64,000 nt of DNA. It comes from Leucosporidium creatinivorum (lineage: Eukaryota > Basidiomycota > Microbotryomycetes > Leucosporidiales > Leucosporidiaceae). Both the position numbers and the translations under genes were made by a program. The DNA lies in contig BCKL01000030.1 of NCBI GenBank assembly GCA_001600635.1, positions 236,283 through 300,282 of the forward strand. Reading direction: 5' to 3'. This document shows positions 1 to 10,300 of this stretch, piece by piece (position 1 is the first letter of the stretch; each line of letters starts with the position of its first letter). The notes beneath the pieces are model-generated. The model was not told the origin of the DNA. It worked only from the letters and a program-made list of their open reading frames with translations, and did not search any database.

Positions 1-411
1 GTTGCTCACCTCTACTAGTGAGACGAGACGATGTCCTGTAGCCGAACGAGCGGGCGAGAGAAAGAGACGAGAACGAGCAGATGGCGGAGAGAGGGAGAAA
101 GGCGCGAGTCGCGCTGGAGGGGGAAGGGGTTCGGCGAGCGAGGGGTCCGACAGCAGTCAGCTTGAAGATGGTGGAGACTTGCAGTAGCTGTTTTGATGTG
201 CCGAGAACGCGCTACAGCCCGTGGAATGCAGCTGTAGCTCTCTTTCGCGCTTCTCTCGGCGCTCGGCTCGGCTCTCGCTTCTCTTCCTCTCGTTTCACCG
301 GCTACCAACTCGAGTGGTGTTCGTCTATATTCCTCATGCGCACCACCAGAAGCTAAGGCCTCTTCCCCTTGACCCAAGCGACCAACGCCGGGCACCTCTC
401 CAGCTTCTCCT
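1..411. repeat. Duplicated intergenic segment, copy 1 (truncated at window edge)
   Basis: This stretch matches 5727-6135 almost base for base, with roughly 25 differences by eye over about 410 bp. The match starts at the first base of the window, so the repeat probably continues to the left. Near 353-411, read on the minus strand, it contains the last codons and stop of the metaxin-like gene whose complete copy lies at 6077-7038. This is therefore a 3' gene fragment plus intergenic DNA, carried along by a tandem duplication. UBC9 copy A starts just to the right. Confidence 0.85.
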
Positions 412-496
412 GCTGCGCCGAGGTTCTCGGCCTCCTCAAGATGAAGCGGTTCTTAAACAGGACAATCCTTCTTCTTGATAGCTCCTTGATGACCAG

Positions 497-1646
497 CTAC
501 TTCTTCTCGTTCTCGTTTGCCTGTTGTTTGATACGCTCGCTGCGACAGGGACGAGCGGGGGTCAGCAAGCTCGGCGACGAGTGGTCGAACGTCACAGCGG
601 ACTCGTAGGCATGCTTATCCGCTTTGTAAAGAAGATAGGCGGGCCTTTGAGCAGGGTCGCCAAGGTTCGGGCTGTCAAACAGCTGCAGAAGATTGACTGG
701 GATCAGCCGTCGCAGTCTTCAACGCTGCTGGAGAAGCGACGACTGCTCACCTCTTGCACGCCAATCAAGATCTGATTAACGGTGATAGCAGGCTTCCACG
801 ACTTCTCTTCATTGAGAATGGAGACTGTGATGTGGTCGGACTGGTCAGCTCTTGAGTAGGGCAACGGTCGGCGCAGCTCAGCACTTACGGCAGACGGTTC
901 CGTTAGGAAAGACATTAGGATGAAAGAGGGGAGGCACGAACTTGCACTTGGGCGGCTTCGAAGGGTACTCTGTCGAGCGGGAGAGTCAGCGCATGGGGTG
1001 AGAGGGGAGGCGCCGAACCTCACCTTCGGGGAAGGTCAATCGCAGCTTGTAGAGACCGCCTGCCCAAAGGGTCTTCCGGAAGGAGCGCTCATCAGCTCAC
1101 TATCCATCTCACCGACGCGGTGGTACGGTGACAGGCTGGGAGCCTCAGCCTGCTCCATGTCCCATCGCCGAGCTGCCACCGCCGGACCGAGAACTCACCC
1201 CTTCCTTCCCAAGGATCCCAGCGTCCCACACCATCAACTCTCGACCGTCACCTTTCGACTGCGGCTTAGCCCAGAAACCCTGCGAGTGACGGAGCGAGCA
1301 TTGCAGCATGTGAGGGTTCGGCGAAGGCCAGAGCGGCGGAAGGGGACAGTTCGGGCGGGGCAGCGAGTCGTACACGAAGGTCGGAGTGGAGCCACCGCAG
1401 GGTGGATTGCGAATGCGTTGGCGAGAGAGCGAGATGAAGATAACGCAGGAGGAGGGCGGGGAAGGGAGTGGAGAGAGCGGGGAGTATCGTATCAGCACCC
1501 GTCCTGCGCTCGTCGCTGGCCCTCCCGGCACATCTGCCAGCCGGAAGCGCAGTGTATCAAGTGAGTGAGATGAAGCTCACATGAGGACGATCCTTGCGCA
1601 CTAGCTTGCGCTCCTCGAGTAGGCGCGAAAGACACAAGCCCGACAT
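497..1646 (-). CDS. UBC9-like SUMO-conjugating enzyme (E2), divergent paralog A
   Basis: This is a second, divergent UBC9. SUMO E2 enzymes take SUMO from the E1 and pass it to substrate lysines. Seven exons fit in phase: 1646-1581, 1279-1199, 1072-1024, 969-889, 824-751, 682-603 and 539-497, giving 157 residues, the normal Ubc9 length. The HPN motif, the active cysteine in GTVCLSIL and the Asp of GDPAQ are all kept. Compared with copy B there are about 42 substitutions by hand count (about 73% identity). Several fall at otherwise conserved sites in the N-terminal helix (Trp16 to Val, His20 to Arg, Phe22 to His) and in the loop GILGKEG (Pro to Leu). Intron positions match copy B exactly. The last intron needs a weak donor, GTCCGC. 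No in-frame stop was found, so it may be functional; expression is unknown. Confidence 0.82.
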
Positions 1647-2020
1647 AGTCCTTGGTAGAGGATGCTGTTGGAGGGCAAGAGGGAGCAGGAGGGAGTCAGT
1701 ATACGCTGTATCGAGCCCAACAGCTAGTTCGTCAGCATTCAGCTCGGAGACAGCACGGGAATCGAAGGAGAGAGGGGAACGCGTCGACGCGCTCGGCCGA
1801 GTCTGGTTCCCTGAGACTGCGCCACCGGGCAGGTAGCTCGACTACACCCCAGGGCTCCTTATACACGCTCTCGCCGCTCCAGCTCGGCCCAGCCCTAGTA
1901 GTCGCTTCGACACCGCTTGTTTCCCTGCAGCGGTCGCCTCTCGCCGCCTGTCTGCTGAACAACGATCCCAACACGTCTGCCCACCTGGTGATAGATAGAT
2001 GAATAAAGCGAGATCCTCTA
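1647..2020. other. Upstream region of UBC9 copy A
   Basis: No gene is seen. The sequence is a diverged copy of 5390-5726, the upstream region of UBC9 copy B; both share a run around 'gagtcagta' and another around 'cgcttgtttccct'. On the minus strand, a CTGAC branch-like site followed by CAG just before the ATG suggests a 5'-UTR intron in both copies. Confidence 0.5.
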
Positions 2021-2325
2021 GCTGAGCTCGCGGTCGAGAGAACGAGTCGTGAACGAGCAGATGGCGGAAGGTGGGAGAGCAGCTTGAGTCGCGGACTTGG
2101 GGCCGACCCGCAAGGGGTTCGAGAGCAGCAGCTGAGAGATTACAGAGATTGAGAGCGCCTGTTTGAGGGGTTTGAGAGCTGGCTACCTAGCTATAGGTTT
2201 CCCTGCTCGTCCTCGGCGTTTAAACTCGGCTCTCGGCTGTCGTCTTTCCGCTCTGTCCGGCTACAAGCTGAGTGGTATTCACTCACACTTCTGCTCGTCG
2301 TCAAAGCTGGAGCTCCTTCTCCTCG
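2021..2325. repeat. Duplicated intergenic segment, decayed copy 3
   Basis: This is a diverged relative of the segments at 1-411 and 5727-6135. It keeps the word 'gaacgagcagatggcgga' near the start, 'ggctctcggct' in the middle, and a version of 'ctaccaactcgagtggtgttc' near the end. It lies between the two UBC9 genes, in the place a tandem duplication of a UBC9-plus-segment unit would put it. Its ends are approximate. Confidence 0.6.
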
Positions 2326-2465
2326 ACTAGCACGACCAGCGCAGAGCAACCCTCAGTCGGTCTCCAATGCCTCGGCCGAGGCGAGCCGAGAGGACAGCGA
2401 TGACAACGAGGTCAATGCGATTGAATACAGATGATTCTCTTCCTGGTAAACTTAAGTCCGGCCTC

Positions 2466-5389
2466 CTACTTCTGCATGTTCTCCTTCGCCTGCTTCTTGA
2501 TCCTCGCGCTGTCGGGGAGATGAGGAAGGGTCAGCGACCGCCCCGAAATCTGCGCTGTAAGAGAGATGGACCCACTTGTAAGCGTTCCTATCCTTCTTGT
2601 AGAGCTCGTAGGCTGGCGCTTGAGCGGGGTCGCCGAGGTTGGGTGCGTCGAGGAGCTGCCGAGCGAGACGAACACCGGTCAGCGCTCGCTCTCCCTCGCG
2701 GTGAAGCACTCTAGGATGCTCACCTCCTGAACACCGAGAAGGATCTGCTTGACGGTAATGGCGGGCTTCCAGGACTTCTCCTCATTGAGGATCGAGACTA
2801 TGAGAGGCGGACATCAGGACTCGGCGCTCTCGGCGACGAAAGAACGGCGCAAGACTCACGGCAGACGGTGCCCGAGGGATATACGTTAGGGTGAAAGAGA
2901 GGGGGGGTGAACTTGCATCGTGGTGGCTTCGAGGGGTAGTCTGTTGAACGAGCAATCTGTCAGTTCGAGCGGGAGAGGGAGGGAAGGCGCCGAAACTCGC
3001 CGTCCGGGAAGATCATCTGGAGTTTGTAGATGCCGTCGGCCCAAATAGTCTGCAGAGGCAGGGGGTCAGTCAGCCCGTTCAAGTTCGGATCACTAGTTGG
3101 CACGTGCTCCGCTACAAGAAGCCTCGAGCCCGCCTCGTCGCCGCGATGCGGGCGTTGTGGCAAGCGGAGTGCGCCAGAGCGGTGCGATGTGAAGGAGGGT
3201 CACTCTGCGCCCGCCGGCGAAGGCAGAAATGCTACAAGCACGGAAAGAGCCCGGCAACGTATGGCGCCGAACTGACTTCTCGAGGCTCATCGCCAGGCCT
3301 TCACCAATGGGCATCTTGCACCAGAGAGGCTAGGAAAGGGTGTGATCGTCTTCGCGATCCGTCAAGTCCGGGAGCCCGCTCCACGCAGCGAGCCAGGGCT
3401 CGCAGCGAGTGGGAGAAACCGGCGATGAACGAAGGCTAGTCTTCGGCGATGCTCCGGCAGCTGTCGCCGAGTACACCGCGCCAGCGGCAAGGCTATCATC
3501 GCCCGCTAGAAGCGTGTCCCAAGAGGCAATTGCCCTGCGGGAGCTGCCTCCCAAGCGGATCAGCGCGTCCCCGCTCCAACCCCCCTCGGAAGATACACAA
3601 TCGGCGTCCTCTGCCCGCTGCTCGCTGCTCGTTCCACAACGACCTACGTACTCTGGTTCCTATCCCGCCCGCCAGAGCGAAACGAGCCACAGAGAAGATG
3701 TCGGCTCGACGAGCAGGCATCGGCCCTCGTTGCGAGCGAGTGCCAAGGGCCGCTGAAAGCAGCGCAGGGAGGAGCTACTACGACGAAACCGATAGAAAGC
3801 GAACCCGAGCGGCCCTCGCCGCACAAACTTGCGTCTCTGTCGCTCGGCGGCTGCCCTTTTCCTGCTCTCCACCGAGGCGAGCTCCAGCGCTCTTCGATAT
3901 CTTCTAGCTCAGCCAGCTCGATCAGAAGCTGGTGCATGGCTACGGTGTCCCAAATCGCATGGACCGGCCAGCTACAGCCCCCCGGCCCGTCAGAAGCGAG
4001 CTCGAGAACCGCAGCGACCGAGCGATGAGTGGACGTAGACACATCTGCTCCTCGTCCCGAGGCCACATCTTGTGAGCGCCGACAGCAAGACGACTATGCA
4101 GAAGACGCAGGGGATGCTGTTAAAGGTCGCAAGGCTAGGCAGCACCCTCGCCGCCCGAACCTGGCTCCCAGGTCGCTCCTCTGGCTCTGCTGCACCGCCA
4201 AGCGAGTTCTCCTAAGTAGCAAGTTGCAATGTCGGTGACATCCAAGTCCACTGCCAGCAGCTCCAGGCCCATCACGCCGCAGCGAGCTGAGCCACAGAGC
4301 GAGGCGAGCGACCAAGGAGTCAGGCTACCGAGATTGGGGGCTGAAGAGCTCGCGAGGCACGCGAGAGTAGGGGAAGAGAGAGAAGAGAGAGGATAGCACC
4401 TCGAGGAAGGGTGAAGGGCAGAACAGCTCTCGCCGTTCGAGCCGCCTCCCAGCCGCTGAGCCGCCTCCCTCTTCTTCCTTCTCGCACCGGTCGTCTGCTC
4501 CGCAAGGAAGGGCATGGCCCTCGCTCAGATGGCGAAGCGTCAAGCCTCGTTCCGCCCTGCGAACCGAGACTCAGCGCAAGCGACTGAGCGAGCGCCGAGC
4601 CAGCTGTTGACCATTGAGCAGCTGGGAGAGCGAGCTGAAGAAGGCAGGGACCATGGAGACCTAGAGAGCAAGCCCAAGCAGTTCCACTGCCCGAGCCTAC
4701 TCCCAGTCCGCTCGTCTCCCCTGCCCGCTCTTGCCTCTCGAGCAAGCCAGCTCCGCCGAGCCCTTCCTCCCCCTCTCCTCCCGCGCCGAGCCCTCCCCCC
4801 ACGCATCCCGCCGGCCTCCTCGCCTTCCACAGTCACCCTCGCCTCCCTCCCAGCCCTCTCAAGACCTCGCATGCAGCACCGAAACCTCGCCAGCATCACC
4901 GAAACTCACCCCTTCCTTCCCCGGGATCCCAACGTCCCAGTTCATCAGATCCAACCCGTCGTCCTTCTTTTGCGGGCGGGCCCAGAAGCCCTGTGTGATT
5001 CGGTTCGAAGCAAAGGGTGGCGTGGTGAGGTAGAGGAGGGGTGAGAGAGGTTGGCGAGCGGCGAAGGGACGGCGCGGTCGGCAAGGCGGTCGAGGAGGCG
5101 ACAGTTGGGCGAGCGAGCGGGAGGAGGTGTGAGATGGTGGTGATGGGCACAGGTAGACGGGCGTGTGCAGGTCGGCAGAAGTAGGCGAGCGAAGGGAGGA
5201 GAGGAGCGAGCGAGAGAGAGCATCAGCACGCGTCTCCCATGTGCACGACCGAGCGCACCACCCCAGCAGCTGAGCTGCAGCCTCAACGAGAGCGAAGATG
5301 GTATGAAGCAGCCCGCTACTCACGAACGGGTGATCCTTCCTCCATTGCTTGCGCTCCTCCTGTAGGCGCATGAGGCAGATTCCCGACAT
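2466..5389 (-). CDS. UBC9: UBC9, SUMO-conjugating enzyme E2 (conserved copy B)
   Basis: This is the E2 enzyme that transfers SUMO to substrates, acting mainly in the nucleus. Seven exons: 5389-5324, 4990-4910, 3049-3001, 2940-2860, 2797-2724, 2655-2576 and 2508-2466, total 157 residues. The N-terminal helix ends in WRKDHPF as in animal and yeast Ubc9. LMNWD, IPGKEGT, the HPN motif, the active cysteine in SGTVCLSIL and DPAQ all follow in order. The start is the first ATG of the conserved MSG N-terminus. Intron 3 uses a GC donor (GCGAGT). Intron 2 is about 1.86 kb, while the matching intron in copy A is about 126 nt. This is the copy expected to supply the essential function. Confidence 0.93.
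3050..4909 (-). other. Unusually long intron 2 of UBC9 copy B
   Basis: The intron has a GTGAGT donor at 4909 and a CTGAC branch followed by CTGCAG just before 3049. Most other introns in the window are 50-130 nt. The interior has open frames on both strands, but they look like GC-rich noise, and no protein family, terminal repeat or target-site duplication was recognised. It may be an insertion, or an embedded non-coding or unrecognised gene. Confidence 0.6.
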
Positions 5390-5726
5390 TGCTGGCTTGG
5401 CTTTCGAGGGAGTGCTGTAGCGTAGAGAAGGGGGGAAAACGAGAGTCAGTACAGCGCTGAAGCGAGGCCGGGAGCTGTAGGCTCAAAGCAGCGCCGGCTG
5501 AAGCAAGCGAGAGGACGGCACGCGTCTCTGCTCGTTGGATTCTGCACCCGAGCAGCCAAGGTGCGGCTGAGCTGCTCNCTTACATCCCCATACCTCGCTC
5601 GTCTCGCCGCTACCGCCCCTCGACGCTCCAACGCCCTCCAGCGCCCCTCCAGCGCGCTTGTTTCCCTCCCCTTGATCGCCTCTCTTCGTGCTGCTCGACT
5701 CCAGGCGAGGAGAGTAGGAAGGGCTG
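5390..5726. other. Upstream region of UBC9 copy B
   Basis: No gene is seen. The minus strand has a branch-plus-CAG site about 25 bases before the ATG that suggests a 5'-UTR intron. The single ambiguous base of the window (n) is at 5578. The region is homologous to 1647-2020. Confidence 0.5.
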
Positions 5727-6135
5727 GTTGCTCACCTCTACTAGTGAGACGAGACGATGTCCTGTAGCCGAACGAGCGGGCGAGAGAAAGAGACGAGAAC
5801 GAGCAGATGGCGGAGAGAGGGGAGAAAGGCGTGAGTCGCGCTGGACGGGGAAGGGGTTCGGCGAGCGAGGGGTCCGACAGCAAGTCAGCTTGAAGATGGT
5901 GGAGTGTTGCAGTAGCTGTTCAATGTGCCAAGGACGCGCTACAGCCCGCGGAAGGTAGCTGTAGCTCTCTTTCGCGCTTCTCTCGGCGCTCGGCTCGGCT
6001 CTGCCTTCTCTCCCTCTGGTTTCGCCCGCTACCAACTCGAGTGGTGTTCGTCTATATTCTTCCTGTGCACCAGAAGCTAAGGCCTCTTGCCCTTGACCCA
6101 AGCGACCAACGCAGGGCACCTCTCCAGCTTCTCCT
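5727..6135. repeat. Duplicated intergenic segment, copy 2
   Basis: This is the partner of 1-411. Its right end lies inside the last exon of the metaxin-like gene, so this copy is in the original context and the one at position 1 is the transplanted one. Similarity stops near 6135, in the middle of coding sequence, which marks a duplication breakpoint. Confidence 0.85.
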
Positions 6136-7038
6136 TCAATGCTCCTGCCGAAGCGTGAGGTAGCTCGAGGATGATGGAGAGGAGGGCGTAGAGGGTGGCG
6201 TCTAGGGGCGTTGGCGACCTGCTCGAGCAAAAAGGTCAGTAAGAAGCACAGTAGAAAAGGAAGAAGAACCCGAGACTGACGCAGCCCCGCCGAACCATTC
6301 CCCCTCGGCCTCCGTCTCCCTCATCTTGACTTCCAGCGCTCCCAACGCAGCTACCGCCTCCCTCTCGACCGCCTCCAGATCCAACGGGGTTTTAGCTCCC
6401 TGTTTCCCTCCCCTTAGTTGCTTGATCTGGGCAATCCTGGCCGTTCGGGATTGAGGGATTGTGGTGAGTGAGGAAGCGAGGGCGGTGAGGTAGGGGAGGG
6501 ATTGAGGGGGTGTGATGGGGTGGGGAGTAGGGGAGAGGTAGAGAGAGGAGAGGACTGAGGGGAGGAGAGTGGTCGTGAGGAGGGAGGTGTAGGCTTGGTG
6601 GGTTGGGTCGGCGGCCGTCTCTTTGGTCGCTGAATCCAAGCCGAGAATCTTGTTGAGCACTTCCTCGGAGCCGAGAAGTTCCCCGTTGGAGAGATGTAGA
6701 GCTGGTAGTTTCTCCCCTGGTGCACCTGTTGGGCTGTTGAGCCAGCGGAGTTGGATCGAGTAGTTTGAGAAGCGAGCGAGGGCTTGAGCTTGACGGCAGG
6801 TCGGGTCCAAGGATTCTGTAGCTGAGGGAGCAGGGCCCAAGAGCCACAGTGTGGGTACAGAGGGAGGAGGTGTAGAGGTAGAAGGGGCGGGGTAGGTGAT
6901 CAAGGGGAACAAGGAGAAGAAGGATGAGATGACGGAGGGGATGGGAATGGATGGGACAGCCGGTACTGCAAGGGGAGAGCACAGTGTTAGCAATTCTGTA
7001 GCACTGTAAAGTAGTGACTGAGACGTACGAGAAGGCAT
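6077..7038 (-). CDS. Metaxin/Sam37-like mitochondrial outer-membrane import protein
   Basis: Metaxin-type proteins have a glutathione-transferase-like fold and take part in the SAM complex, which inserts beta-barrel proteins into the mitochondrial outer membrane. Three exons (7038-7029, 6965-6281, 6218-6077) give 278 residues. Residues about 45-105 read as the thioredoxin-like N-domain: a hydrophobic strand, then CRQAQALARFSNYS and GEKLPALHLSNGELL, the layout of metaxins. The last exon begins SPTPLDATLYALLSIILEL, the usual 'SLDA' metaxin C-domain motif, and ends in a short basic tail. The final 20 codons were copied into the repeat at 1-411. It is divergent from Ku80. Family confidence is good; the choice between Sam37, metaxin-1 and metaxin-2 is open. 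Confidence 0.72.
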
Positions 7039-7321
7039 TGATGAGCTACAGTTAACAGAACACGAGCGAGAAGAGCAAGAAGGAGAGAGAGCGAGACGCG
7101 CTCAGTTGGGAGGGAGCTCAAGTCAGGGGTAGCAGCGGGTCGAAGCAGCTCGAGAGGAAGCATAGAAGGCTACATACTCACTTGGCGGCTCTGACAGCTC
7201 TCTGTACCTCTTCACCTCCCTCTCTGCTGCTCCATGACACCCGCACTCGCTCGCGCCCTCGCCTCTTAGCTTCCCACTTGCACCTGGCAGCTCTCTCGCC
7301 TCAAGGGCTCTGTAGCCCATC

Positions 7322-10300
7322 ATGTCCATCGTATGTCTCTCCTCTTCTACTGCTCTCCTACAGCTCCCAGCTCCCACTAACTCTCACGCCACTACAGACC
7401 TCCAACTCGGCGGCCTTGTTTGTGCTCGACTGCTCCTACTCGATGGCCCAACCTCGTCCCTTCACTCAAGGAACAGGCGACCGCGCATCTACTACAGATC
7501 AACCTCCCATCGACCTCGCGAAAACCTACATCAAGTCCAAAATCATCCAGCGGGTCCGTCCTCGCCTTCAGCTCACTCCCCCACACGCGAGAACTGACTT
7601 CTTACGCTTGGCTGCACTACACCTACAGATCCTTCGCGACCTGAAAACCACGCCCATCTCCCTCCTCTGCTACGCCCACCGCAAGTCCAAGAACATCCTC
7701 ACTCAGCGCCAAAAGGACAAGGCGGCCGAAGGGGAGAGGGAGCCTTACGTCAAGGAGGAGGATGCGTATAGGAATATGTACGAGCAGATTGGCTTGAAGT
7801 ATGATATGGAGACCGAGTTGATTGGCAAAGTGGATGAGGTCAAGGCGGGGGAAGGACCGGATGCTTGGGAGAGGGAGGAGGGCGAGGCCGGCTTCTCAGC
7901 GGACGGTTAGTTCGAGATATCGCTTGCTCGGCCGTTCGCTCTCTACTCTATCACTGACAATCTCCACCACCTCTCATTCTCCTTCCCGCTCCCCTCCCAC
8001 CTGCTTACACCCCCCAAAGCCCACTCGGCCCTCATCCTCGCGCTCGAGACGCTCGACGCCGCTCCCCGCATCTGGGCTCCCAGCTGGAAGCGCGACATCT
8101 ACCTCCTCACCGACGGCGAGAGCGAGAGTGATTGGGATGGCTGGGAGAGTACGAGGGATAGGTTGGAGCAGAAGGGCGTGGGCGTGAGGGTCGTGTGAGT
8201 TGTCTTTGACCCGAGTGAAGGCGGGAGAGAGAGCTGACAAGGGTTCGATGTGATGGACAGAGGATTCAACTTTGATGATGAGGAGACGGGGTATGTCGAG
8301 AAGGACAAATCGGCCATCAAGGTGAGTTGCTCTCATTCTCCTTCTCGGCGTTTAGCCGTAGCTTCTACTCTCGCTCACTTCTCTTCCACACGACCAACAG
8401 CGCACCAACGAAGCCCACCTCCACAAGATCACCGACCACCTCTCCAACACCGAACCCCTCTCCTTCTCCGCGACCATCTCCCTCTCCTCGGCCCTCGCCT
8501 CCCTCTCCATCCCCAATCTCAAAGCCGTCAACTCGACCAAAACGAACATGACCCTCACGATGGGGTCCAAGGAGGATCACCCCGAGAGCTTCATCTGCAT
8601 GTTCGTGGATGTCAAGAAGGCCGTCTCGAGCGCGGGAGCGATGAGTATGAAGAGGTTCTCGATGAGGGGGTTTAAGAAGAGCGCGAGGACGGGCAAGGAG
8701 ACGGAAAAGATTGTGGAGGAGAAGAGGAGGGAGAGTCAGGCTGTTGGTCAGGGAGGGCACAGTCAGAGTCTGACGCAGAGGGACGAACCCATGCCCACCT
8801 CGGCCGCTCCAGCTCCCACGCCCAGCATCTTCGCCACCACCACCCAGCCTGCGCCTCCCTCCTCCTCCGCTTTTGCTCCCACCTCCACCTCCACCCTCCT
8901 CCCACCGCGCACCTACGAAATGGGCGACATTGGCCGCACCCTCCCTCGCACGCTTCTGGAAGAAGGGCTCGCCGCTCCCGATTCGGACGATTCCGAGGCG
9001 GAGGAAATCAGCCATGCTGTGACTATGGATAAGGTGTATCGGTATAGGCCTTTGCCGGAGGAGTTGGAGGCGAAGGAGAGGGAGAGGGAGAAGAGGAGGG
9101 AGGAGAGGAAGAGGGCGAAGAGGGCTGGGAAGGGGGGGAAGGCGCAGGCGTTGGGGTCGGATGAGGAGGGGGAGGAGGAGGAGAGTGAGGAGGACGAGGG
9201 GGAGGAGGAAGAGGAGGATGAGATGAAGAATTGGGAGGCCGTGTTGCCCGAGAAGTTGAGCAGCGTGTACCAGTATGGAGGGGAGTTTGTGCCCGTCGAG
9301 GATATGCTGAATGGCGTGGGCGATTTGGTTGGGTTGAAGACGGGGTTGGAGATTGTCGCGTTCATGAAGATGAGTGATGTGAGTCGTCTGTCTCTCTTTT
9401 CGCTGTTGTGTCGAGGCGGTAGAACGAGTTGCAAGAAGCTCGGCGCTGACCCCCTCGTCTTCGCCTTCGCACAGGTCAAGTTTCACCACCGCCTCGGCGA
9501 CGTCTACTACATCCTTCCCGACGCCTCTGCCCCCGGCTCCTCCCTCACCTTCTCGGCCTTCATCAACGCCATGTTTGAGCGCAAGTCGTGCGCCGTCGTC
9601 CGCTTTGTCGGCAAGGGCACCAAGGCGCAGGGGAGGGAGGAGCTCAAGTACCCGGACCCGAAGATGGGGGTGATGTGGCCTGTGGTCGAGGAGGAGACGG
9701 GCGTGGAGTATTGTTGGTGGGTCAAGGTGAGTTTCTGCTCGTTTCGCTGCTCGGCGGGCATGCAGCTAATCAGCCCCGCTCTCACGACCGAATAGATGCC
9801 CTTCGCTGAGGATGTCCGTCTACTCGACTTCCCCTCCCTCACCTCCGTCACGACGGCCAAGGGCAAAGTCCTCACCGAGCACGCCAACCTCCCCACCGCG
9901 GCGCAACAAGAAGCGATGGACGCCTTTGTCGATGATATGGACTTGAGCGAGGCGGGTGGGAAGGACGAAGATGGGTTGGTCACTCTCTCTCGCTCATCGG
10001 CCATCGCGGAGAAACTGACGCGACCCAACGCCGACACAGCGACCCCCTCCCCTGGTTCCGCGTGGCCGACTCGTACAACCCCGCCAACCACAACATCACC
10101 AACACGCTCGTCTACCGCTTGTCCAACCCCTATGGACCGCTCCCGCCCGTCTCGGAAGAGTTGGTCAAGTACCTCGACCCGCCTGAGGAGGTGGTGAGGA
10201 AGTCGCAGGCGAGTTTGAAAAGGGTTCGGGAGGTGATGGGGGTGAGGGCCGGTGAGTTTTCTCTCTCTTTACTGTCCCAGTTTGAGCAATGCTGACGAGG

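Follow-up and report, generated by a model that had tools for sequence, protein, structure and literature searches.

A tandem array of UBC9 genes beside metaxin in Leucosporidium creatinivorum, with signs of later exchange between two of its copies

Results

The window, that is, the whole stretch of 64,000 nucleotides analysed here (C30:236283-300282), lies on a contig (C30) of 315,548 bases in a Leucosporidium creatinivorum genome of 27.7 Mb assembled into 63 contigs. Immediately before position 1 of the window lies a run of 3565 N (C30:232718-236282). Two intact UBC9 genes with seven exons, copy B (1646 to 497) and copy C (5389 to 2466), lie on the minus strand (Table 1), head-to-tail as an earlier note on this DNA had described them. 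Both encode 157 amino acids in exons of identical lengths and contain no internal stops. The earlier note had also proposed that the array continues to the left, and a third minus-strand gene, copy A, was located there, its start falling within the N gap that abuts position 1: exons 3-7 are readable, and exons 1-2 fall inside the gap. Copy C introns are GT-AG apart from the GC-AG intron 3, and intron 3 of copy A is likewise GC-AG. A search of the whole genome with the copy C protein returned 18 matches, 12 of them on C30 (53-100% identity), all inside copies A, B and C; the other six, elsewhere in the genome, had 34-46% identity and resembled other E2s. No UBC9 beyond A, B and C was found by this search. 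At this locus, at least three UBC9 genes stand beside metaxin in an old tandem array, in the order A-B-C.

Table 1. Positions of the genes and repeated segments at the UBC9 locus (window numbering, unless contig C30 is named)
Feature	Position	Strand	Remarks
UBC9 copy A, exons 3-7	C30:230812-231376 (window-style -5471 to -4907)	-	about 5 kb left of the window
Upstream segment of copy A	1..411 (C30:236283-236693)	-	intergenic part and passenger metaxin tail (409-353); directly after the 3565-N gap
UBC9 copy B	exons 1646-1581, 1279-1199, 1072-1024, 969-889, 824-751, 682-603, 539-497	-	157 aa; GT-AG introns of 54-301 bp
Decayed upstream/metaxin-end segment of copy B	1981..2400	-	80-bp core at 80%, ~58% overall; metaxin reading lost
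UBC9 copy C	exons 5389-5324, 4990-4910, 3049-3001, 2940-2860, 2797-2724, 2655-2576, 2508-2466	-	157 aa
Long intron 2 of copy C	3050..4909	-	1860 bp; intron 2 of copy B is 126 bp
Putative collapsed A/C tract	4447..5821 of C	.	1375 bp; upstream region, exon 1, intron 1, exon 2 and part of intron 2; edges seen, middle putative (A reads N)
Single ambiguous base N	5578	.	inside the putative collapsed tract
Native segment	5390..6135	-	UBC9-C upstream region and end of the metaxin last exon
Metaxin/Tom37-type gene	6077..7080	-	approximate model

The assignment to UBC9 was examined with Pfam and with a PDB comparison that covered copies B and C. UQ_con was matched at E 3.2e-47 (C) and 3.8e-43 (B), and also by copy A, which was read in exons 3-7 only. 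The best PDB matches of B and C were S. pombe and other UBC9s (best E 1.3e-64 and 6.4e-76, respectively), far above other E2s, as the best entry not named UBC9, SCE1 or Ube2i reached 5.2e-35 for B and 6e-33 for C. Like S. pombe Ubc9 (3rcz; 68% identity to C, 61% to B) and human UBC9/UBE2I (1z5s), all three copies have a UBC fold with the HPN motif and the catalytic Cys93. Unlike the S. pombe and human proteins, they are encoded by three linked genes, B is altered at H20, Y87 and S89, and near residue 35 B and C are each shorter by one residue. We predict A and C to be SUMO E2 enzymes of the ordinary kind.

The metaxin gene, with a stop codon that ends at 6077, lies upstream of the UBC9-C start at 5389. 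Its hand-joined two-exon product scored just above the cut-off for GST_C_6 (PF17171) and just below those for GST_N_4 (PF17172) and Tom37 (PF10568). Beside metaxin, at 7322-7910 on the plus strand, there is a gene start that by eye we take to resemble a Ku-type protein; a hand-joined piece of this gene gave no Pfam match at E 0.05. By eye, a plus-strand gene at 1-2118 of locus L009 carries a KSDGVRV motif that we assume to be like that of mRNA capping enzyme.

The segment at 5727-6135 recurs at 1-411 with 93% identity, and the two are closer to each other, as had been claimed, than are the two UBC9 genes of the window (73% nucleotide identity between B and C over exons 3-7). Of the three metaxin-end segments that the earlier note had counted, the third, at about 1981-2400, is real but decayed: identity is about 58% overall, with a core of about 80 bp at 80%, and the metaxin reading is lost. 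Of metaxin, the shared segment carries no more than the final 18 codons of the last exon with the stop; in 1-411 this tail (409-353) is in frame and unchanged at the protein level. The stretch 5727-6135 is the real end of the metaxin gene, and the array holds two passenger fragments besides this native one. The metaxin pieces are thus passengers: the unit to which they belong starts inside the metaxin last exon and includes an upstream region for each UBC9. As its anatomy shows, the repeated unit extends from the last metaxin codons through the metaxin-UBC9 intergenic region to the UBC9 end, and it probably originated by unequal exchange.

The ages of the copies were compared by pairwise dS and dN over exons 3-7 (108 codons). 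The values, of which dS is near saturation, were 0.89 and 0.116 for A-C (79.9% nucleotide identity), 1.31 and 0.173 for A-B, and 1.59 and 0.169 for B-C, with dN/dS of 0.107-0.132 across the three pairs. In a genome search that skipped simple repeats and very common words, the sole other match to the long intron 2 of copy C was intron 2 of copy A, at 70% and 82% identity in two blocks. A mobile element was rejected as the source of this 1860-bp intron, since no match was found elsewhere in the genome and no terminal inverted repeats were seen; Rfam at gathering score, checked for the origin of intron 2, found no family in loci L009 and L011. The dS values, together with the long intron 2 and the GC-AG intron 3 common to A and C, indicate that A and C are sisters and that B split earlier. 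By these measures the three appear to be copies of old origin, B being older than the A-C split. The physical order A-B-C is at odds with the tree ((A,C),B), and because B sits between the sisters, a further rearrangement or loss is needed.

At least two duplications of different age had been deduced earlier from the close match of 1-411 to 5727-6135. Two ages are borne out by dS and by the long intron 2 confined to A and C, but the 93% match does not date a duplication. It was rejected as a date since the rest of the A/C unit is at 68% (left alignment) and at 79.9% in exons 3-7. Because A/C identity is this low in the rest of the unit, the stretch at 1-411 must have been homogenised later, most simply by gene conversion.

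The edges of the gap bear on this exchange. Copies A and C are identical over exactly 95 bp at both of them. To the left, the A-C alignment comprises 1918 columns at 68% identity without the last 95, and the exact run of 95 ends at the gap; the longest exact run in 5000 column shuffles of this alignment was 36. The left side is a mosaic, with 82-87% at C 4120-4319, 66% at 4320-4419, and then 100% up to the gap. To the right, the first 95 bp are exact and the rest of the 411 bp is at 93%. As identity does not change in one clean step on either side, more than one exchange is needed.

The length of 95 bp points to the assembler. Two long N runs were examined, this one and one at a polyubiquitin locus on C6, and all four edges end in repeated strings of exactly 95 bp. 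The polyubiquitin locus (C6:235600-240600, L037) has a gap of 580 N with repeated edges like those of the UBC9 gap. ALLPATHS-LG uses k = 96. Edges of 95 bp equal k-1 for this k, and are as expected where a de Bruijn assembler leaves a path shared by two copies. The N at 5578, inside the tract in question, could be a site where A and C differ. A further lone N on C30 sits in a poly-G run (C30:221846). On C16, two paired genes are identical over about 549 bp, each with one N at the corresponding position, and this stretch was assembled without a gap. The C16 pair shows that this assembly can run unbroken through more than 95 bp of identity, and together with the N in the poly-G run it means that neither sign, the single N or the gap, amounts to proof. 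Only the 95-bp edges are observed, and between them the sequence of A may not be that of C. For a simple collapsed tract, 1185 bp between the edges would suffice, so that about 2.4 kb of the 3565 N is left unexplained, whether as estimate error, other sequence or a further copy.

A near-identical block between otherwise diverged paralogues, the criterion of gene conversion, was found here, in a mosaic pattern. With A and C so diverged elsewhere, the tract is better explained by gene conversion than by a young duplication. A recent second tandem duplication would leave just such a match of 93-100%, yet one event gives one identity level, and the same pair stands at 79.9% in exons 3-7 and at 68% in the left alignment; by reasoning, moreover, C-like sequence between the 3' half of A and B is not expected from one unequal crossover of A with C. 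We consider such a duplication improbable as the cause of the A/C likeness near the gap. The identity of 1-411 and 5727-6135 might instead reflect strong selection on a common promoter, as part of the region may be regulatory, given the 80-bp core kept at 80% in the copy B segment. However, the near-identity takes in the passenger metaxin tail (353-409), the 95-bp identity left of the gap sits within intron 2, the upstream region of B is only 54% identical to that of C, and its proximal part, at 48.9%, falls within 20 shuffled controls (mean 45.3, highest 51.8). Little credence can therefore be given to promoter selection.

Exchange by gene conversion is thus the favoured reading. Much later than the duplications, a non-reciprocal exchange would have homogenised the 5' parts of A and C along as much as about 1.4 kb, including the upstream region and exons 1-2. 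The assembler would then have collapsed the two tracts, leaving the 3565-N gap at whose end the window begins; the edges of this tract are seen, and its middle is inferred. An artefact, by haplotype duplication or mis-scaffolding, could also be suspected behind the array or copy A, for the array contains the gap, whose edges carry the mark of k-mer overlap. The earlier note had named an artefact as what would overturn it: the gap does resemble an assembly collapse, but the copies are too different for an artefact, with dS of 0.9-1.6 between A, B and C, far beyond allelic difference. B and C moreover lie on one stretch broken only by a single N, and the 3' exons of A are on the same contig in the same orientation. 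An artefactual array or copy A is very improbable.

We then considered copy B. Human and S. pombe UBC9 have the same residue at 101 positions. Copy C departs from it at 16 of these, all in exons 3-7 and including K74R, and B at 25, including W16V, H20R, F22H, K30S, N40V, P46L, M62L, Y87F, S89N and K110N. Copy A, read in exons 3-7 only, departs at 15, including P80A and I125P. According to the accessible part of PMC8636563, the backside SUMO-binding residues of UBC9 are R13, R17 and H20. Copy C keeps all three, B keeps R13 and R17 and has R20, and exon 1 of A is in the gap. At the substrate contacts K74, Y87, S89, T91 and D127 (from the part of PMC5727262 available), A keeps five of five, C has R74, and B carries F87 and N89. 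At the D127 column, S. pombe Ubc9 also deviates, with S. Of the E1 contacts R13, K14, R17, K18 and Q at position 10 (as given in the accessible text of PMC3012696), copy B keeps the first four, but L replaces Q at position 10.

Relative-rate tests, made after the alignment had been inspected, gave 8 changes in C versus 19 in B with S. pombe as outgroup (p 0.034), and 5 versus 18 with human (p 0.007). The excess in B falls mainly in exons 1-2 (2 versus 11 with S. pombe, 1 versus 7 with human); in exons 3-7 the counts were 6 versus 8 and 4 versus 11, respectively, and those for A versus B were 7 versus 10 and 5 versus 11. For B-C, dN/dS over all exons was 0.14, made up of 0.107 in exons 3-7 and 0.236 in exons 1-2. 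With four branch lengths and 5000 runs for each, neutral evolution of the C coding sequence in simulation gave stop-free sequences in 0.2-1.3% of runs; copy B has 157 codons without a stop.

These data allow two readings of copy B. It could be a gene in early decay without function, as its departures from residues shared by human and S. pombe (W16, H20, F22, K30, N40, P46, Y87, S89 and others) and the relative-rate counts would suggest. Against this, B has an open frame with canonical splice sites, low dN/dS to C, and the catalytic residues and the E1-contact residues R13, K14, R17 and K18, and it is free of stops although its dS to A and C is 1.3-1.6. We regard decay as unlikely; judged from its coding sequence, copy B is intact and constrained, and a functional, altered enzyme is more likely than a dead one. 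We predict, with less assurance than for the rest, that it is a SUMO E2 with altered chain-forming or substrate preference, because H20R lies in the backside SUMO site and Y87F and S89N lie at the sites for the substrate lysine and acidic residue. The changes could also be drift.

An expansion of the rest of the SUMO pathway was considered and rejected. The genome has one zf-MIZ match, one short exon match to canonical SUMO on C10, and two SUMO-like ORFs on C16. PF11976 gave 14 matches, of which 13 were read by eye; most resembled ubiquitin, one a Rad60-type and one a ubiquilin-type domain. The two C16 ORFs (C16:358752-358967, L046; C16:401212-401406, L047) have a SUMO-like domain ending in GG that leads into a shared KPV(I/V)YLFPPSAL... 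region; they form the pair with the identical stretch of about 549 bp and one N, and the second has an in-frame TAG. Diverged single ubiquitin-like ORFs on C1, C11 and C23 (L032, L040, L042, L043, L044) are, by eye, possibly decaying or specialised ubiquitin genes.

Discussion

Taken as a whole, the account is an old A-B-C array from which B split first, a recent A/C conversion collapsed in the assembly, A and C as ordinary E2s and B as a changed one, and we hold it to be probable. Tandem gene arrays in which gene conversion is patchy are already known as a type of locus. The blocks of high and low identity between old paralogues seen here are like those of other tandem arrays under partial gene conversion; the difference is that the gene involved is a normally single-copy gene of the SUMO pathway.

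Extra E2 copies have been kept in other lineages as well, as SCE1 in plants and as the Ube2i2 protein (PDB 4l83), presumably a fish protein. In contrast to these, the present case is fungal, and is a linked tandem array with exchange between copies. As far as the accessible part of PMC6680281 states, the SUMO E2 is mostly a single gene outside plants, with additional SCE1 copies in eudicots and grasses. The portion of the literature searched, in which coverage of subscription journals is limited, contained no report of UBC9 arrays in fungi.

A bolder and rather doubtful extension is a divided SUMO E2 system, in which A and C would be held as one general UBC9 by repeated conversion of the N-terminal half, and copy B would serve as another E2 whose backside SUMO binding and choice of substrates have changed. 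The half converted between A and C would carry the surface that binds E1 and SUMO. Between B and C, no near-identical tract was seen.

The locus is of moderate interest, owing to copy B and to the unusual gene for such an array. It illustrates that an assembly gap can be read, through identical edges of k-mer length, as a sign of recent exchange between old duplicates. Three linked UBC9 copies long kept in a fungus would offer a natural test of whether the SUMO E2 step is divisible between paralogues.
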